Shown: piece by piece, positions 4,071 to 18,239 of the stretch
Numbering within the stretch: position 1 is the stretch's first letter
How the letters are laid out: the number at the start of each line of letters is the position of its first letter
NCBI GenBank assembly: GCA_027008645.1
Contig: JALVEE010000109.1
Location: forward strand, 1 to 35,232
DNA: 35,232 nt
DNA from: Saprospiraceae bacterium
Lineage (GTDB): Bacteria > Bacteroidota > Bacteroidia > Chitinophagales > Saprospiraceae
Direction of reading: 5' to 3'
Position numbers and translations under genes: made by a program
The notes under the pieces: generated by a model
Told to the model about the DNA's origin: nothing
Databases searched by the model: none
Seen by the model: the letters and a program-made list of their open reading frames with translations, nothing else

Positions 4071-7000
4071 ATGAAAACATTAACTATAAGTGTTTTGCAA
4101 TTTGCTTTTGTAAATTTACTATTATTTGCAAAAAACATTAAAAAAGAATACGTATTTTTAATTGTATTTTTAAGCTATATTTCTGTACTGTTTGGTAATA
4201 CTTCCATAAATAATACTATGGATTTTTTTCCGCCGAACAATGTTCCTACCGATATAAAGCTTGATGGTGGTGACACAGACTTCATCAATGAGAATAGACC
4301 TGTAGGTAGTTTGGTCTCAATATTGAGTTCCAATGATACGGATCCCGGTGACACACTGACTTTTTCGCTGGTTTCTGGTATTGGAGATACCGATAATTCA
4401 AGTTTTTATATAGAAAGGCACAATAAATTGATGTTGAATACCGTGCCTGACTTTGAAACAAAAAATTCTTATTCTATCAGGTTAAGGGTTGATGATGGCA
4501 ATGGTGGTGTTTATGAAGAAGCATTTACCATTTCTGTTGTTGATATCATTACAGAAACAACAGATGCATCACAGGGTATTAAGGTTTGGGATTTTAATAA
4601 TCAAAATGATTATAATGTCCCGGACATGGATAAACTTAAGGTAGATCAAGGTGTTGCTCAATTGATTTCCGTATCCGAATTTCAGGTAAATGATGCGGTT
4701 AATAATTGGCAAGCACATTCAGCAAGCGCATTAATGAACAATGGTAATATCATCATAGTATGGCAATCAAATGATGATAATCACACGACAAATGCAGCGG
4801 GTCAAACCAATGACAATGACCATTCACATATCGCCGCAAAAATAATAGACCAAAGAGGCAACGTTGTGATTCCGGAATTTCAAGTAAATGACGAAATTGA
4901 AAGTTGGCAGGATTATCCTGATGTTACAATTTTGCAAAATGGGAAAATTTTCATCTCTTGGTACACAAAAGACTTAAACCATTCTACTAATGCAGCCGGC
5001 CAAACCAATGACGATGACGAGGAACATGTTGCGGCCAAAATTTATAATCCCGACGGAACTGTTGCTGTTTCTGAGTTTCAGGTAAATGATGAAATCGAAC
5101 TTAGGGAATACTTTCCAAATGCTTCCGTATTAAATAATGGCCAGATTTTTATTACTTGGGCTTCAAGTGATACTCTACATACAACAAATGCTGTAGGGCA
5201 AGACAATGATGGCTCAATCAGACATATTGCAGCAAAAATATTGAATTCTGACGGAACTACAGCTGTATCGGAGTTTCAAATAAATGATGAAGTTGAGGAT
5301 TTACAAACACACCCTAAAGCTGTAATACTGAATGATGGAAGAATTTTTATAGTTTGGGCGTCCAAAGACCACAATCATACAACAAATGCTGTTGGTCAAG
5401 CTAATGATGACGATCATTATCATATAGCGGCAAAAATATATAATCCGGATGGAACTACAAACGTTCCTGAATTTCAAGTAAATGATGAAATTGACGATAT
5501 TCAAGATTTACCGGTTCCGGCAGTTCTAAAAAACGGTAAAATAATTATTACTTGGGAGACTAAAGACTATAACCACTCTACTAACTCTACAGGACAAGAT
5601 AATGACGATAGTGGATTTCATATAGCTGCCAAAATATATAATCCGGATGCTACAGTAGCAAAAGCTGAATTTCAGGTGAACGATCAGATATATTCAGATG
5701 AAAAAGAGCCGGGATTGGTAGTTTTAGAAAACGGAAAAGTATTTATCACTTGGCAATCCAAAGATCATATTCACGGTACAAATCCAGCCTTATTCCCAAA
5801 GGATGGTGACAATTATCATATCGCAGCAAAAATACTTAATGCTGATGGAACAACTTCATTGGAAGAATTTCAAGTCAACTACGAAATAGAATTGTGGCAA
5901 ATCAATCCTGATATTTTGCTATTGGCAAATGGAAATGTTTTGATTACCTGGTATTCAAAAGACAATTACCACAGTACTTCGGTAGCCGGACAAACATATG
6001 ACAATGACGTAAATCATATCGCCGGTATTATATTGAGCAAAGATGGAGTCGCTGAAGAGTTTCCAGCATCTTATGCGACTACAAAACCGTATGTTTCATT
6101 TAATTCTCCATTGACTTTTAAAACAACTGTCAATTCTTTCGAAGCAATATTATCTAATAATAATGATGGTTCTATCAAATACCAAGTGTCAGATGACGGT
6201 GGAGCAACTTGGAAATATTTCGATGGGTCGTCTTGGCAAATGACCTCATCTAACGATGGTTCGATGACAAATACAGAAGCAGTAATAAATAACAATATAG
6301 TTAGCTTAGCAGATGATGGTGGTAGCTTTAATTGTAGAGCATATCTTATTTCCGATGGTTCTCAAAAAGTGGAGTTAGATCAAATTAATATTACTTATAC
6401 TCTAAGTTACGATGTTTCAGGTACTGCTTGGTATGACGAAAATGGAGATGGCACTATGGATGTAGCAGAAGTTATAGGACTTCAGGATATCACTGTGAAA
6501 CTCATAAATGATACCAATCACAATGGTGTCTATGATCTGGGTGAAACGGTATTCAAACAAACAACAACATCTGCAAACGGAACATATAAATTTGAAAAAG
6601 TATTTGACGGAGATTATATAATTGTTATCGATTATTTTGACTCTGCTTTAAACAATGACCCCGTCAATAATTCACTAACATATGGATTGACTACTCCGGA
6701 AGAAATCGCTGTGACAGTAAATGGTTTTGATATTAGTGATATGAATTTTGGTTTTGATGATGCTAAGGTTTCTCTTTCAATCGACCAAGAATCAATACCT
6801 GAAAATGGCGGAATAGCTGTAGTTGAAGTATCAATTAATCCGACTACCGGTTTTAATACGACCGTTACACTATCAACTTCAGGCGTTGCAATTGATGGTT
6901 CTGATTATGTAGATCAGGCTGACAACGGACTTTTGAACAATAAAAGTATTATCATCCCATTTGGAAATGATAGAGAAACTTTAAATATCCTTGCGGTGGA

Positions 7001-10903: not shown

Positions 10904-12024
10904 ATTGTGATTAGCTTTTAAATTGTATCTTTGTTGTGGTTATTCACAGGTTCAAGGGGGATAGTAACAATCGGAGCCCCGTTGTGATTAGCTTTTAAAT
11001 TGTATCTTTGTTGTGGTTATTCACAGGGGTAACTGCAACAGTAAAAAAGGTTGATGTGTTGTGATTAGCTTTTAAATTGTATCTTTGTTGTGGTTATTCA
11101 CAGGATCGCTACTGTCGAAGACGTGGATCACAGGTTGTGATTAGCTTTTAAATTGTATCTTTGTTGTGGTTATTCACAGGTTGAAGATGCCCGGGAGAAT
11201 TGGAGAATGCGTTGTGATTAGCTTTTAAATTGTATCTTTGTTGTGGTTATTCACAGGAAAGTTTGGAAAGAAATGCTAACATTGCATGTTGTGATTAGCT
11301 TTTAAATTGTATCTTTGTTGTGGTTATTCACAGGTTGGTTGTTCGCCAATGTTGGCGAATTGTGGTTGTGATTAGCTTTTAAATTGTATCTTTGTTGTGG
11401 TTATTCACAGGAAACTTCATGAGTACTCAACTTCATCAGAGTTGTGATTAGCTTTTAAATTGTATCTTTGTTGTGGTTATTCACAGGCATTTTGATAACA
11501 CCCACTCCAACCAGGGGTTGTGATTAGCTTTTAAATTGTATCTTTGTTGTGGTTATTCACAGGTTACAACAACCCACTTTACTATTATACTGCGTTGTGA
11601 TTAGCTTTTAAATTGTATCTTTGTTGTGGTTATTCACAGGTTCAATCATTTAGATGATTTTATTGAATACGTTGTGATTAGCTTTTAAATTGTATCTTTG
11701 TTGTGGTTATTCACAGGTTATTAGAGTTTGGTAACTCTTTAGCTAATGTTGTGATTAGCTTTTAAATTGTATCTTTGTTGTGGTTATTCACAGGCTTATG
11801 TACAAAATACAATGTACGTTTCAGTTGTGATTAGCTTTTAAATTGTATCTTTGTTGTGGTTATTCACAGGAGGGTTCAGGTGGAGGTGGTACAGATGACC
11901 GTTGTGATTAGCTTTTAAATTGTATCTTTGTTGTGGTTATTCACAGGATTCCTTATATTCCAACACCACGGGCTACGGTTGTGATTAGCTTTTAAATTGT
12001 ATCTTTGTTGTGGTTATTCACAGG
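10904..12024 (+). CRISPR. Type II-C CRISPR array, 15 repeats of 47 bp and 14 spacers
   Basis: Repeats start at 10904, 10981, 11058, 11134, 11211, 11288, 11365, 11441, 11517, 11594, 11671, 11748, 11824, 11901 and 11978. All are identical, except that repeat 1 has A instead of G at position 1. Repeats open GTTGTGATTAGC and close TTATTCACAGG, with short terminal inverted repeats TGTGA/TCACA. Spacers are 29 or 30 nt and all unique. Orientation is rightward, because repeat positions 2-23 pair with the tracrRNA anti-repeat and the repeat-internal promoter points right. The array is therefore convergent with cas2-cas1-cas9. The 46-47-bp repeat length is usual for Bacteroidota II-C systems. Confidence 0.98.
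10905..10933 (+). promoter_or_regulatory. Promoter inside the CRISPR repeat (shown for repeat 1, present in all 15)
   Basis: TTG at repeat positions 2-4 and TATCTTTG at positions 23-30 are 18 nt apart, matching TTG/TAnnTTTG. Predicted initiation is near repeat position 34, so each transcript would carry about 14 nt of repeat, then the spacer, then the next repeat. Neisseria II-C arrays are known to carry a promoter in each repeat. Here the same logic would use the Bacteroidota sigma consensus. Confidence 0.6.
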
Positions 12025-12083: not shown

Positions 12084-12425
12084 TTAGAATAATTCCAATT
12101 GAACTACATTTTGAGGATTCCTTTTTGGTTTCCTGCTATAGAATATATCCATCATACCAAATTGTTTATCTGTAACTGTTAGTATCCCAACTTTACCCAA
12201 TCTTGGTAGATTGGCTTTAACTCTTTTTTCATGTACTTTTGCATTTTCTCTGCTGGAACAATGCCTGAGATATATTGAGAATTGAAACATGGTAAATCCA
12301 TCATTCAGAAGATATTTTCTAAAATCTCCGGCTGCTTTTCTTTCTTGTCTTGTATTGGTAGGTAAATCAAAGAATACGTATAGCCACATAATTTTATATT
12401 TATTGTATCGGTTTCGGGTAATCAT
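12084..12425 (-). CDS. cas2: CRISPR-associated protein Cas2
   Basis: This small ferredoxin-fold subunit of the Cas1-Cas2 spacer integrase is 113 residues as read. The family hallmark strand [16 protein letters not shown] with the conserved Asp is at residues 15-30. [22 protein letters not shown] follows, as is typical for type II Cas2. Cas2 dimers bridge two Cas1 dimers and measure spacer length. Two starts are possible: the ATG at 12425, 6 nt after the cas1 stop, or the internal ATG at 12389, which gives the more usual N-terminus [10 protein letters not shown]. It is last in the leftward operon cas9-cas1-cas2 and is followed by the array in convergent orientation. Confidence 0.97.
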
Positions 12426-12431
12426 ATTTAA

Positions 12432-13325
12432 TCATATTAAAAGCGGATAATTTATTTTTCTTTTTTTTCCTCTATAGCAAGCAGCAAGTGATGCTGTCGT
12501 CATTATCATCCCAACCATTAAAGGGCTTTTCCTTTTACCAAACTGTGCATCCATTGTTGAAACAGCAAGCAAGCTACTTTTAGTTTCCTTGTCCAAAAAT
12601 GATGCCAAACCTTGATTTTCAAAGGCATCATAAACAATTAAATCAATAAAAGGTCTATAAGGTTCCATAATATCGTCCGCAAGACAAAATGGATTGTATT
12701 TATTTCGATGATGAATTCCCAATCCCGGCAATAGCCCCGAAGAAACCAATGACCTTGCAATCATAGCCCGGATAACAGCATAACCATAGTTCAAAAGATT
12801 ATTTGGTGGCTCTCCATATCTATCCCTTACAAAATCATCAAAAAGTGTTTTCCAATAGTAGGATGCTGCTTGTCCTTCTATATTGTTTGGATCACCGCTT
12901 TCAACTCGTGAAGACAAATAATCTAATTTTTTATGGGATTTACCAACTTTAATCAACACTCTACTTTGGTTTTTGATTTTTGCAATCACCGTCTGTTGCC
13001 AAAGATTCTTTTTCAAAGGTAAAGAGGCCTCAATTTGATATCGTTGTTTTTCTGTTTGTTCTGAATGACCTACCATTGGCAGCATCAAACTGGTAGGCAT
13101 ATGTCTATCGTCACAGCTGATTAAAGCTACTTTGTTATTTTGTAATGCAATTATAGCTTTATGTGTAATTGTAATCTGACCATGATCAAGAATAACAACT
13201 CCTATATCTTCTATCGGACGTGTAATTAATTTTTCCCCTTCTATTGTATTCTTCCGTATCTGAAGTTGCTTGTGTTTTAAACTTATATATGCCTGACTAC
13301 CAAAATACAAAGTTTGTTTTATCAT
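12432..13325 (-). CDS. cas1: CRISPR-associated endonuclease Cas1
   Basis: This 297-residue integrase inserts new spacers into the array, acting with Cas2. The metal-binding catalytic residues are visible as E150 (NIEGQAA), H205 (LGIHHRNKYNPF) and E221 (ADDIMEPYRP), spaced as in type II Cas1 proteins. The beta-rich N-terminal domain (residues 1-80) and the helical catalytic domain are complete. It lies 24 nt after the cas9 stop and 6 nt before cas2, so all three are one operon. No csn2 or cas4 is present, which places the locus in subtype II-C. In this subtype Cas9 and tracrRNA are expected to help choose PAM-flanked spacers. Confidence 0.97.
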   Translation of the reverse strand: MIKQTLYFGSQAYISLKHKQLQIRKNTIEGEKLITRPIEDIGVVILDHGQITITHKAIIALQNNKVALISCDDRHMPTSLMLPMVGHSEQTEKQRYQIEASLPLKKNLWQQTVIAKIKNQSRVLIKVGKSHKKLDYLSSRVESGDPNNIEGQAASYYWKTLFDDFVRDRYGEPPNNLLNYGYAVIRAMIARSLVSSGLLPGLGIHHRNKYNPFCLADDIMEPYRPFIDLIVYDAFENQGLASFLDKETKSSLLAVSTMDAQFGKRKSPLMVGMIMTTASLAACYRGKKRKINYPLLI

Positions 13326-16300: not shown

Positions 16301-17510
16301 GTATCACTCTGGGGCCAATTATTTTTTTCTTTTTTTCTCCACCTATCATTATTTCAACTTCTTTACCTTCCAATTCGCAAATACTCAATAATCCTTTTTG
16401 GGATTTTAATCTACGCTGATAAAATATTATTTTATTTCGTATCTCATCCTTTAGCTTATCTGTTAAGACATCATAATATTGTGATTGCTTTTCCCAAATT
16501 TTGTCAAATTCATCCATATAGTCTTGTCTGTAAAAGACTTGATTTTTAAGTCTTGAATGAGGGTTAGCTTTGATTTGATTGTAGAGATACTGTCCTACTG
16601 TAATTTTTTTAAAGTATAATTCTTTGCTTCTATCACTTATTTCACCCAAATAACCACTAGAACTATTTATTTGACCATTAATTTCTTGCAATACAATTAA
16701 TAAATGTTCAAGATCTAATTGATTTTTTAATCCTTTTACCCTTAATTCATATTGTTGCAATTTTATTTCATCCCTCTTTCCTTTAAGTTTTATCCCTTCA
16801 ATATTAAACCCCTCTTTACAAATAGACCAAGTTTTACCTTTATTTTTTCCAATTATTTCATTTTTAAGTTTATCTATGAGAATATCGGGGTAATATTGTT
16901 TTTGATTATTCCAAATTTTATCGAATTCTTCAATTAGATCAGATCTATAAAACTCCGGAATATTTTTCTTTCCTTTTTTTAATCTTTGATATACATACTC
17001 TCCGGGAGTAATATTATTCATATATAGATATTTTGCAACATCCATTCCATCAATAGATTGTCCATCCCCTTCATCTTTTGCTTTCCTGTTGCTTTTATAT
17101 CCTCTTTTTTTATTGATAGCCAATAAAATACGGGCAAATTCTTCTAATGTCACTTTATTATCAACAGCTTTTGATCTTATTTCCCATGTTTGATGTGTAG
17201 TTTTTGCCCCATATTCAGTCAAAACAGTTTCGCTATTAATTATTTTATTATCTTTTAAAACTTTAATTAAATTCTCTCTCCTTAGTTGATACCTGTCGAT
17301 ATTTCTTCTCATTCCCCTTTTTAATGTCCTATCTGCATTAACAGACATAGATTTCCCTTTTTGAAAATCATCATTTTCATCTGTGGTAATAGGTATAACT
17401 CTGACACCTGTTTTAATAATTTTAGATATCTCATTTTTGTCCTCAGCTTCATGAACATAAGCCCACCCCAAAGATGTTGTTCCTAAATCTAAACCTAATA
17501 TTTTTTTCAT
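13350..17510 (-). CDS. cas9: CRISPR-associated endonuclease Cas9 (type II-C, large form)
   Basis: This is the 1386-residue RNA-guided DNA nuclease of the locus. RuvC-I is at the N-terminus (GLDLGTTSLGWA, D8), followed by the Arg-rich bridge helix at about 58-86 (NADRTLKRGMRRN). The REC lobe contains two related segments at 167-219 and 303-358. RuvC-II is IRIELARELK with E685. HNH is FDIEHIIPKAL with H772 and N795, and RuvC-III is HRHHAMDA with H940 and D943. The 443 residues after D943 form the PAM-interacting end. All nuclease residues are present, so cleavage activity is expected. The protein is longer than the compact ~1000-1100-residue II-C enzymes, but similar to other Bacteroidota ones. 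The ATG at 17510 overlaps the region where the -33 element of the tracrRNA promoter would lie. Its own predicted promoter is about 150 nt further upstream. Confidence 0.98.
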   Translation of the reverse strand: MKKILGLDLGTTSLGWAYVHEAEDKNEISKIIKTGVRVIPITTDENDDFQKGKSMSVNADRTLKRGMRRNIDRYQLRRENLIKVLKDNKIINSETVLTEYGAKTTHQTWEIRSKAVDNKVTLEEFARILLAINKKRGYKSNRKAKDEGDGQSIDGMDVAKYLYMNNITPGEYVYQRLKKGKKNIPEFYRSDLIEEFDKIWNNQKQYYPDILIDKLKNEIIGKNKGKTWSICKEGFNIEGIKLKGKRDEIKLQQYELRVKGLKNQLDLEHLLIVLQEINGQINSSSGYLGEISDRSKELYFKKITVGQYLYNQIKANPHSRLKNQVFYRQDYMDEFDKIWEKQSQYYDVLTDKLKDEIRNKIIFYQRRLKSQKGLLSICELEGKEVEIMIGGEKKKKIIGPRVIPKSSPLFQEYKIWQILNNIIIRNYETNEQYYLDDENKKILFEELNLKGKLTDTQVLNLIVDKPKEWQLNYKDGIEGNKTNQTLYKAYQNILIASGHNIDISKMKTKKIKEAIKVVFESLGINTDILNFDSDLKGKEFIKQPAYQLWHLLYSYEGDNSLTGNERLYKKLKEKFGFKREYAKFLVSVVFQDDYGNLGAKAIKKILPYMKEGHEYSEAASLAGYRHSKKSLTKEEIKSKVLLDRLELLPKNSLRNPVVEKILNQMVNLVNAIIDEYGRPDEIRIELARELKKSAKERKEMTENISKANKEYERIRNVLKEIPPFNSGVRITRNDIIKYRLYQELTNNGYKTIYTKTYIPLEKLYTKEFDIEHIIPKALLFDDSFSNKTLAVREFNRVKSSLTGIDAIIEKYGKDSDGYKNYIDGIENLYKNKAISRAKYLKLKMKQSEIPDGFIERDLRNSQYIAKKAKEMLESISRRVITTSGKVTSKLREDWQLINVLQELNWDKYNKLGLTYYEVDKGGKKIPKIKDWTKRNDHRHHAMDAITIAFTKHSHIQYLNNLNARKDKKNEKFHSVYGIEQKETEVNERGKRVIKPPMPLNKLRNEVKEHLDKTLISFKAKNKVVTKNKNKTKKKGGYNIKTELTPRGQLHKETIYGTSKYYVTKYEKIGTKFDEEKIFMVAKKEYRNALLKRLREFENNPKKAFGGKNSISKNPIFLDEEQSEKVPDKVKLVWLENRFTIRKEITPDNFKTRKNIEKVIDTGARKKMLERFEENNNDSKKAFSNLEENPIWLSKEKGIKLKSVSISGVSNAVPLHHKRNNKGKEILDKNGKPFPADYVSLGNNHHVAIYRDENGNLQEEVVSFFEAVARAKTGTPIINKNHEKGWEFLFSMKQNEMFVFPNEETGFDPKEIDLMDENNYDQISPNLFRVQKFTIRDYFFRHHFETNVDNINLLKSTTWKRLGLSGLLNVVKVRMNHLGKIVSVGEY

Positions 17511-17527
17511 AATTAAAATTTTTTGTT

Positions 17528-17535
17528 TATATTTG
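17528..17535 (+). promoter_or_regulatory. -7 box of the tracrRNA promoter
   Basis: TATATTTG matches TAnnTTTG and ends about 4 nt before the expected RNA start, which falls right at the anti-repeat. No good TTG is seen 19-20 nt upstream, where the sequence is the beginning of cas9 (a T-run). The promoter may be weak or activator-dependent. Confidence 0.55.
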
Positions 17536-17539
17536 CATT

Positions 17540-17622
17540 ACAATTTAAAGCTAATCACAATAAGGATTATTCCGTTGTGAAAACATTTAGTTTGCCCTCA
17601 ACTATAAATCGGGGGCATTTTT
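17540..17622 (+). ncRNA. tracrRNA, divergent from cas9
   Basis: The anti-repeat at 17540-17560 (ACAATTTAAAGCTAATCACAA) pairs with repeat positions 2-23 over 21 bp, leaving one bulged U in the repeat's U-run. It is followed by a short nexus hairpin GGA-TTAT-TCC (17564-17573), a linker containing CCGTTGTGAAAACA, and an intrinsic terminator. The predicted RNA is about 83 nt. It lies on the strand opposite cas9, starting 30 nt from its ATG. It would pair with each crRNA and load Cas9. Confidence 0.92.
17593..17622 (+). terminator. Intrinsic terminator of the tracrRNA
   Basis: TGCCCTC at 17593-17599 pairs with GGGGGCA at 17611-17617 (one G-U pair), with an 11-nt loop and a T-tract at 17618-17622. 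Confidence 0.85.
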
Positions 17623-17664
17623 ATAATCAGAAGTTAATAATTTGAATAGTGCTAAGTATTAACA

Positions 17665-17696
17665 CAAATTTACGCAATTATATCAGATTGAACAAA
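17665..17696 (-). promoter_or_regulatory. Consensus promoter of the cas9-cas1-cas2 operon
   Basis: On the minus strand this reads TTTG (17696-17693), 20 nt, then TAAATTTG (17672-17665), a full consensus match. Initiation would be near 17661, giving a leader of about 150 nt that is antisense to the entire tracrRNA gene before reaching the cas9 ATG at 17510. Confidence 0.65.
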
Positions 17697-17834: not shown

Positions 17835-18239
17835 ATGATAAAATATTTATTAACAATATTCTTGTTGGCTGCTTTATTCTCTTGCTCTTGCAAGAAGAGA
17901 ATAAGCAATTCTTCTAACGATGATAAAAATACGATTGAAAACACAAATTCTATCGATAAATCAGCTGTTTACAATTCTACTAAAGAGTATGCGATTGTGA
18001 TAAAAAAGACAAATTTAAGCAAAAACAATCCTTTTCCAACTATATCTTTTTCGATAATCGACCTAAACAATAGTAATAGAAGCATTTTCAATGATACTGT
18101 TCCGGGTGGAAAAGTCAAATGGATTTCGGATTATGCTATAGAAGTAAAATCCATGATAGGAAGGCCTAAAGATATACACTCAAAAGTAAAAAAACCATTG
18201 TATAAGCTAAATGTGAAAAGCCTTACAAAATTCAAATAA
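17835..18239 (+). CDS. Small predicted lipoprotein
   Basis: This 134-residue protein of unrecognised family has an N-terminus MIKYLLTIFLLAALFSC that is a lipoprotein signal, with the lipobox cysteine at residue 17. A short Asn/Ser/Asp-rich tether (about 22-45) and a small beta-rich C-terminal part follow (EYAIVIKKTNL, KWISDYAIEVK). It would be anchored in the outer or inner membrane. It ends 24 nt before the Asp-box T9SS protein gene and points the same way, so the two may be co-transcribed. No function is suggested by sequence. Confidence 0.75.
   Translation: MIKYLLTIFLLAALFSCSCKKRISNSSNDDKNTIENTNSIDKSAVYNSTKEYAIVIKKTNLSKNNPFPTISFSIIDLNNSNRSIFNDTVPGGKVKWISDYAIEVKSMIGRPKDIHSKVKKPLYKLNVKSLTKFK

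Follow-up and report, generated by a model that had tools for sequence, protein, structure and literature searches.

In type II CRISPR-Cas systems (clustered regularly interspaced short palindromic repeats and their associated proteins), the gene for the trans-activating CRISPR RNA (tracrRNA) often lies upstream of cas9 and antisense to it, and the tracrRNA of Streptococcus pyogenes is likewise placed antisense to cas9. We analyzed a 35,232-nucleotide contig from a Saprospiraceae bacterium (JALVEE010000109.1, forward strand; "the window" below), which carries a complete type II-C CRISPR-Cas locus whose control elements are compact and overlap. Here, the tracrRNA gene is directly upstream of cas9, on the plus strand, antisense to cas9. 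We think that the best account of cas9 transcription in the window is probably a distal promoter on the far side of the tracrRNA gene that reads antisense through it.

A related arrangement is described for Group B Streptococcus (Streptococcus agalactiae), where a promoter at the 3' end of the tracrRNA gene, P2cas, drives cas transcription, according to the portion of the report used here (PMC12216829). The window has a promoter candidate at or beyond the 3' end of the tracrRNA gene and aimed at cas9 (17665-17696), judging from sequence only. The preliminary description of this DNA had considered an antisense leader to be a different route of Cas9 control, but P2cas is a precedent for it, so the route is not new. 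What we add is its likely use in type II-C systems and its recurrence in loci where the tracrRNA gene and cas9 are closely spaced. The two systems do differ: P2cas belongs to a type II-A system in a Firmicute, is repressed by CovR, and is accompanied in other strains by a constitutive promoter, P1cas (same portion of PMC12216829), while the window has a type II-C system with a candidate Bacteroidota sigma-A promoter, no proximal promoter that we could find, and a tracrRNA promoter whose -33 position falls within codon 2 of cas9.

Three other systems are worth comparing, again from portions of the cited reports. In S. pyogenes, the amount of Cas9 and the tracrRNA are also coupled via the region upstream of cas9 (PMC11417352). 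There, a long form of the tracrRNA (tracr-L) guides Cas9 to the cas promoter, whereas the tracrRNA in the window is predicted to start right at the anti-repeat. Fp2Cas9 from Flavobacterium psychrophilum CN46 is a Bacteroidota type II-C system like ours, and its authors infer a cas9 promoter of the form TAnnTTTG as well as promoters in the repeats (PMC10309648). However, they place the cas9 promoter in an insertion sequence (IS982) between the tracrRNA and cas9, which is proximal, as in the long layout described below. CRISPR1 of Riemerella anatipestifer is also type II-C, with cas9-cas1-cas2 and an anti-repeat upstream of cas9 (PMC5006608). The R. anatipestifer strain that we examined (our locus L076) has a long layout with a gap of 114 nt, unlike the window. 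Its authors found no promoter in the repeats, although the repeat of L076 does contain TATCTTTG. A limited literature search found no work on control of cas9 expression in type II-C systems of Bacteroidota beyond the inferred IS-borne promoter of Fp2Cas9. Nor did the same limited search turn up a paper that describes Bacteroidota cas9 leaders lying antisense to the tracrRNA, but we do not claim that none has been printed.

For F. psychrophilum, the -7 consensus of sigma-A promoters is reported as TAnnTTTG, and the box spans -12 to -5 relative to the start (PMC9723704, in the portion used). The minus strand of the window from 17696 to 17665 reads TTTG-N20-TAAATTTG, a full match to the Bacteroidota sigma-A consensus, and the match sits just past the tracrRNA terminator. 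Apart from this -7 box, the minus strand has no strict TAnnTTTG from the cas9 ATG up to the divergent open reading frame (ORF) that begins at 17835. A box at -12 to -5 would put the start of cas9 transcription at 17660, and the leader would run from 17660 to 17511. This leader would be antisense to the tracrRNA over its whole length and would perfectly complement the anti-repeat. The full-consensus promoter, a start near 17661, and a leader of about 150 nt that includes a repeat-like stretch had all been claimed in the preliminary description, and they hold, with the start moved by one base and the leader still a prediction.

Several scores set this site apart. With a degenerate matrix, the site scores 14.0 on the cas9 strand, and the runner-up within 330 nt of the ATG on its upstream side scores 8.2. 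The best score in the promoter's own 60-nt bin reaches percentile 0.9975 against 200 Markov shuffles. We found 8 instances of the pattern TTTG-N18-22-TAnnTTTG on the two strands of the window, as compared to 2.5 expected (0 of 100 shuffles reached 8), so lone matches elsewhere can be due to chance. The spacing of the site, N20, is also the empirical optimum. We counted TTG-N20-TAnnTTTG in 205 regions upstream of other ORFs in the collected DNA, leaving out L171 and regions that bear a tracrRNA or look like arrays, and found 10 in the sense orientation and 1 antisense; spacings of 15-19 and 21-25, pooled, gave 10 sense and 13 antisense.

We infer that a cas9 transcript starts at this distal site and is the main cas9 mRNA. 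Alternatively, 17665-17696 might yield a short antisense RNA that ends in the tracrRNA region, similar to srn036 of Group B Streptococcus, with the cas9 mRNA coming from elsewhere. An antisense RNA over the 3' end of the tracrRNA was in fact reported in S. agalactiae and was suggested at the time to modulate the tracrRNA (PMC4448216, in part), but the promoter of that RNA has since proved to be P2cas, which drives cas transcription (PMC12216829, in part). Also, a simple scan found no terminator between 17400 and 17900 (although it missed the tracrRNA terminator as well, whose 11-nt loop is beyond the limit of the scan), and because the upstream neighbor is divergent, there is little "elsewhere" for a cas9 promoter to be. 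We consider a short antisense RNA to be very unlikely as the explanation.

The promoter of the tracrRNA is on the other strand. As previously described, 18 nt separate its -7 box from the cas9 ATG, and its -33 position (17505-17507 at N20) is within the cas9 coding start. That position is in codon 2, but the bases there are TTT instead of TTG, so the -33 element is degenerate. The predicted tracrRNA start is 30 nt from the cas9 ATG.

To compare spacings, we collected related cas9 loci from Bacteroidota records. In 78 of the best 80 of 171 related loci, the cas9 strand has a repeat-like complement of the anti-repeat upstream of cas9. (In the other two, L012 and L035, the tracrRNA is also upstream, but it points the same way as cas9.) We also searched genomes with a 30-base nexus probe, allowing up to 3 mismatches. 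Counting the genomes at the center of each sample, it matched 54 of the 395 genomes sampled from the class, 13 of 87 genomes of one family, and 23 of 199 genomes sampled from the window's family. The loci came from two genome collections, which may overlap, and only exact duplicates were removed. Our first set had 139 loci, of which 6 lacked a nexus within 4 mismatches (L006, L021, L031, L037, L085, and L086; other evidence makes the first four short) and 9 were dropped because no cas9 start was found by pattern (L012, L032, L035, L040, L097, L105, L126, L127, and L140; L040 looks short and L032 looks long). The remaining 124 plus the window made 125 loci, and the counts of strict boxes given below are for these (54 short, 65 long, and 6 longer). 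A further 28 loci, less 4 without a cas9 start (L148, L153, L154, and L156) and 1 duplicate, brought the total to 148 distinct loci with both a nexus and a cas9 start.

Across these 148 loci, the distance from the start of the repeat-like sequence to the cas9 ATG is bimodal: 74 loci are short (40-79 nt), 68 are long (83-255 nt), and 6 are at 308-620 nt, with the 80-nt limit chosen once the distribution was known. The window, at 50 nt, is short, and short loci from cultured strains include those of Psychroflexus lacisalsi (L010, 61 nt) and Marinifilum (L043 and L055, 65 nt). About half of the loci examined are packed tightly enough that they may need the same arrangement as the window. The layout is labile, yet not random, on the Cas9 tree: in a FastTree tree of Cas9 N-termini (146 of the 148 loci, 139 of which carry both traits), the layout changes 29 times over 139 labelled loci, as compared to 45-51 times in the 10 listed shuffles of the labels. 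Even a single genus-level group (g104) contains both, with gaps of 49-75 nt but 148 nt in L093.

A few loci have other unusual features. By eye, L050 seems to repeat the cas9 start in truncated form, with another tracrRNA-like stretch after it, and L135 seems to hold a truncated tracrRNA copy upstream. In six of the 148 loci (L008, L009, L042, L068, L094, and L095), the tracrRNA is closely followed by a second element, which is bounded by AAATGTTT- and AAACATTT-like arms and, as read on the cas9 strand, lies about 40-100 nt upstream of the nexus (a control stretch had 1 in 139). A terminator-like hairpin follows the element in 4 of the 6 folds. This element resembles a tracrRNA tail whose nexus has been replaced.

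We scored each locus against its own shuffles with a promoter weight matrix that we set by hand from the published consensus. As a positive control, the tracrRNA promoter on the other strand gave z = 12.4 in short loci and 11.3 in long loci (a strict -7 box is present in 34/54 short and 47/65 long loci). On the cas9 strand, the signal between the tracrRNA and the ATG was z = 4.6 in long loci versus 0.9 in short loci, while the signal just past the terminator, 40-100 nt upstream of the nexus, was z = 4.7 in short loci and 2.9 in long loci. Five further bins, out to 400 nt, were flat in short loci (z = -1.2 to 0.9). The tracrRNA core was depleted of promoter score on both strands, and we therefore reject a cas9-strand sigma-A promoter within it.

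As another control, we used permuted motifs as decoys: a set of 60, and then 100 with empirical spacing, with 66-74 loci in each bin (those that were long enough). The spacing weights for the second set came from 218 regions with the arrays still included (N20 had 13 sense and 1 antisense). The upstream signal in short loci was 4.65 versus 1.98 ± 0.98 for decoys (0/60 as high), or 4.52 versus 1.66 ± 1.04 with empirical spacing (2/100 as high). The proximal signal in long loci was 4.27 versus 0.15 ± 1.65 (0/60), or 3.56 with empirical spacing (1/100), and the proximal regions of the 65 long loci contain 31 strict boxes as compared to 5.8 expected. The upstream signal exceeded the proximal signal in 49/72 short but 28/67 long loci (Fisher's exact test, p = 0.002), and the proximal signal was high in 22/72 short versus 35/67 long loci (p = 0.010), neither being corrected for relatedness. 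These promoter-score statistics agree with a distal promoter in short loci such as the window. They also suggest that long loci tend to have their own promoter between the tracrRNA and the ATG, so that their leaders would miss the tracrRNA. Thus the antisense leader of the preliminary description is not general: the 68 loci with gaps of 83-255 nt show, as a class, promoter signal within the gap.

Conservation in near relatives is mixed. A congener (G001) retains the tracrRNA and its flank, and aligning it to the window gives GTAA[A/T]TTTGT at the place of the -7 box, but the -33 TTTG is not conserved in that alignment. We did not find Cas9, Cas1, Cas2, or CRISPR repeats in the 12 kb around this tracrRNA. 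It appears to be a solo tracrRNA relic (L171, at about 4490-4590 of G001:C126) with nexus, anti-repeat, and terminator kept, and L153 is another. Among the best 80 of 171 loci, the closest Cas9 (67% identity) is from L002, whose contig stops 70 nt upstream of the nexus. The next locus, L003 (64%), has a long layout (104 nt) without a strict box, and L004 (61%, 51 nt) is the nearest short relative with enough sequence. We reject conservation of the exact promoter, because G001 does not share the -33 element and L004 has no strict box. The absence from close homologues that the preliminary description had named as counter-evidence is thus partly seen for the exact sequence but not for the position, where G001 keeps the -7 box.

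Several observations weigh against our proposal, one being that the 220 nt upstream in L004 hold no strict box. Long loci also have some upstream signal (2.97, with 4/60 decoys as high, or 2.77 and 8/100 with empirical spacing), and because the decoy means in the upstream bin are above zero (1.7-2.0), part of the z score there is compositional. We rejected the idea that short loci are marked by a strict TAnnTTTG upstream of the tracrRNA, since there were 5 in 54 loci and 4.8 were expected. Between the tracrRNA and cas9, 4 of these 54 loci contain a strict box, as compared to 0.8 expected (the maximum of 200 resamplings was 4), and a proximal promoter is thus present in some members of the class. 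The upstream signal alone did not differ significantly by layout (37/72 short versus 27/67 long, p = 0.23, uncorrected for relatedness). Also, when we used 19 independent pairs from the Cas9 tree, the comparison of upstream to proximal signal went the same way in 6.6 pairs and the opposite way in 4.8, which is not significant (median p = 0.75), and there was no significant difference for the proximal signal alone (4.5 versus 4.4, median p = 1) or for the upstream signal alone (median p = 0.75). The class-wide signal is weak and is built of degenerate sites, and the strong part of the case is the window's own site.

These results also bear on the possibility that an unrecognized cas9 promoter lies within the tracrRNA gene or at the ATG, which would give a leader with little or no complement to the tracrRNA. 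The four short loci with proximal strict boxes (L060, L079, L106, and L112) show that overlapping divergent promoters do fit into a small gap, and non-sigma-A motifs, to which our scan is blind, account for 7% of the high-confidence starts in F. psychrophilum (PMC9723704, in part). However, short loci have no proximal signal as a class (0.83, with 27/60 decoys as high, or 0.08 and 43/100 with empirical spacing), the tracrRNA core is depleted, and the window's best matches in this stretch score 8.2 (at 17599-17606, in the terminator region) and 5.0, far from the 14.0 of the distal site. Overall, we think that a hidden proximal promoter is unlikely.

If the distal site is the cas9 promoter, then a sigma-A promoter at 17665-17696 would drive cas9-cas1-cas2 from a start near 17660, antisense through the whole tracrRNA gene, and the tracrRNA would be transcribed the opposite way from a promoter whose -33 position is in cas9 itself. 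The two units would overlap over the full length of the tracrRNA, and their polymerases would run head-on. The short layout would leave little room for anything else, with the promoter-like signal placed beyond the tracrRNA. In predicted folds for the window, the anti-repeat pairs with the cas9 leader at -28.4 kcal/mol with no bulge, and with the crRNA (CRISPR RNA) repeat at -23.9 kcal/mol with one bulge. The full duplex of leader and tracrRNA was computed at -141.9, but this value is a result of complementarity and is no proof of a duplex in the cell. More tentatively, head-on transcription or the 83-bp RNA duplex might lower the amount of free tracrRNA, of cas9 mRNA, or of both. The outcome could be less tracrRNA while cas9 is transcribed, cleavage of the cas9 leader on the tracrRNA by RNase III, or no net effect. 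We rate a regulatory consequence as well below the distal promoter itself.

Indeed, the overlap might be a by-product of compaction, with no regulatory effect and with either place for the promoter being equally good. This is compatible with a distal promoter, and we give it slightly less than an even chance. The lability of the layout, including the presence of both layouts within g104, is consistent with a by-product. Nothing speaks directly against it, although for an essential guide RNA, one might expect some effect from an exact 83-bp antisense overlap. A bolder idea is that, in about half of the type II-C loci of Bacteroidota, the tracrRNA is a cis-encoded negative regulator of the cas9 mRNA, acting through the perfect complement in the leader, with RNase III as the executor and the crRNA as the competitor. 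Cas9 would then be made only once free tracrRNA has been bound up by the crRNA and by the Cas9 already present, which would keep the protein and its RNA balanced without a repressor. We consider a regulatory tracrRNA of this kind to be quite unlikely.

The remaining parts of the locus are as expected for type II-C. TIGR01865, TIGR03639, and TIGR01573 each score above their own cut-offs in the window, and the anti-repeat is complementary to the repeat by sequence and fold. No further minus-strand ORF of at least 90 amino acids, such as csn2 or cas4, was found between cas9, cas1, cas2, and the array, which is where the family scan was run. Rfam gave no match in the window at its gathering thresholds.

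Table 1. Coordinates of the CRISPR-Cas genes, the tracrRNA, and the candidate control elements in the window.
Feature	Position	Strand	Evidence
cas2	12084..12425	-	TIGR01573; PADLOC Cas2_II
cas1	12432..13325	-	TIGR03639 type II Cas1; PADLOC Cas1_II
cas9, 1386 aa	13350..17510	-	TIGR01865, E 5e-147
CRISPR array of 15 repeats (47 nt each); crRNA sense +	10904..12024	+	repeat sequence
Predicted cas9 mRNA leader, 150 nt, antisense to complete tracrRNA	17511..17660	-	inferred from promoter geometry
tracrRNA promoter -7 box TATATTTG, 18 nt from cas9 ATG	17528..17535	+	sequence
tracrRNA (predicted): anti-repeat, nexus hairpin, terminator hairpin	about 17540..17622	+	repeat match, fold, nexus kept in relatives
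tracrRNA anti-repeat	17540..17561	+	pairs with crRNA repeat
tracrRNA terminator: hairpin 17594-17616 with 11-nt loop, then U-run	17594..17622	+	fold
-7 box TAAATTTG of distal cas9 promoter candidate	17665..17672	-	sequence; GTAA[A/T]TTTGT in congener
-33 element TTTG of distal cas9 promoter candidate	17693..17696	-	sequence, pattern scan, N20 optimum
Divergent neighbor ORF, 134 aa; bounds the intergenic region expected to hold the cas9 promoter	17835..18239	+	

The repeats may carry promoters as well. All 15 repeats in the window contain TTG-N18-TATCTTTG, a full match to the Bacteroidota sigma-A pattern, so these are candidate crRNA promoters, again on sequence grounds alone. Among 59 repeats that we examined from other loci (at least 44 nt, among L002-L081), 33 have a strict TAnnTTTG in the crRNA sense and 1 has it on the other strand; 27 of the 59 have the strict box plus TTG at N16-20. 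Mononucleotide shuffles averaged 3.0 for the strict box and 0.24 for the box plus TTG.

The locus may also have moved between lineages. At E ≤ 1e-100, the window's Cas9 had matches in 5 of 59 other sampled relatives from the genus, family, and order, at 40-44% identity, and in 0 of 4 congeners, which precluded a comparison of Cas9 within the genus. Cas9s at 51-67% identity to the window's do occur among the best 80 of 171 related loci, and this difference hints at horizontal transfer.

The two layouts make the question of how cas9 is controlled directly testable. In about half of the loci that we examined, transcription of cas9 may need to run antisense across the tracrRNA gene, and in short loci, deleting or relocating the tracrRNA may alter the cas9 mRNA. 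If the pairing matters, then it would match Cas9 to its guide RNA without a repressor.
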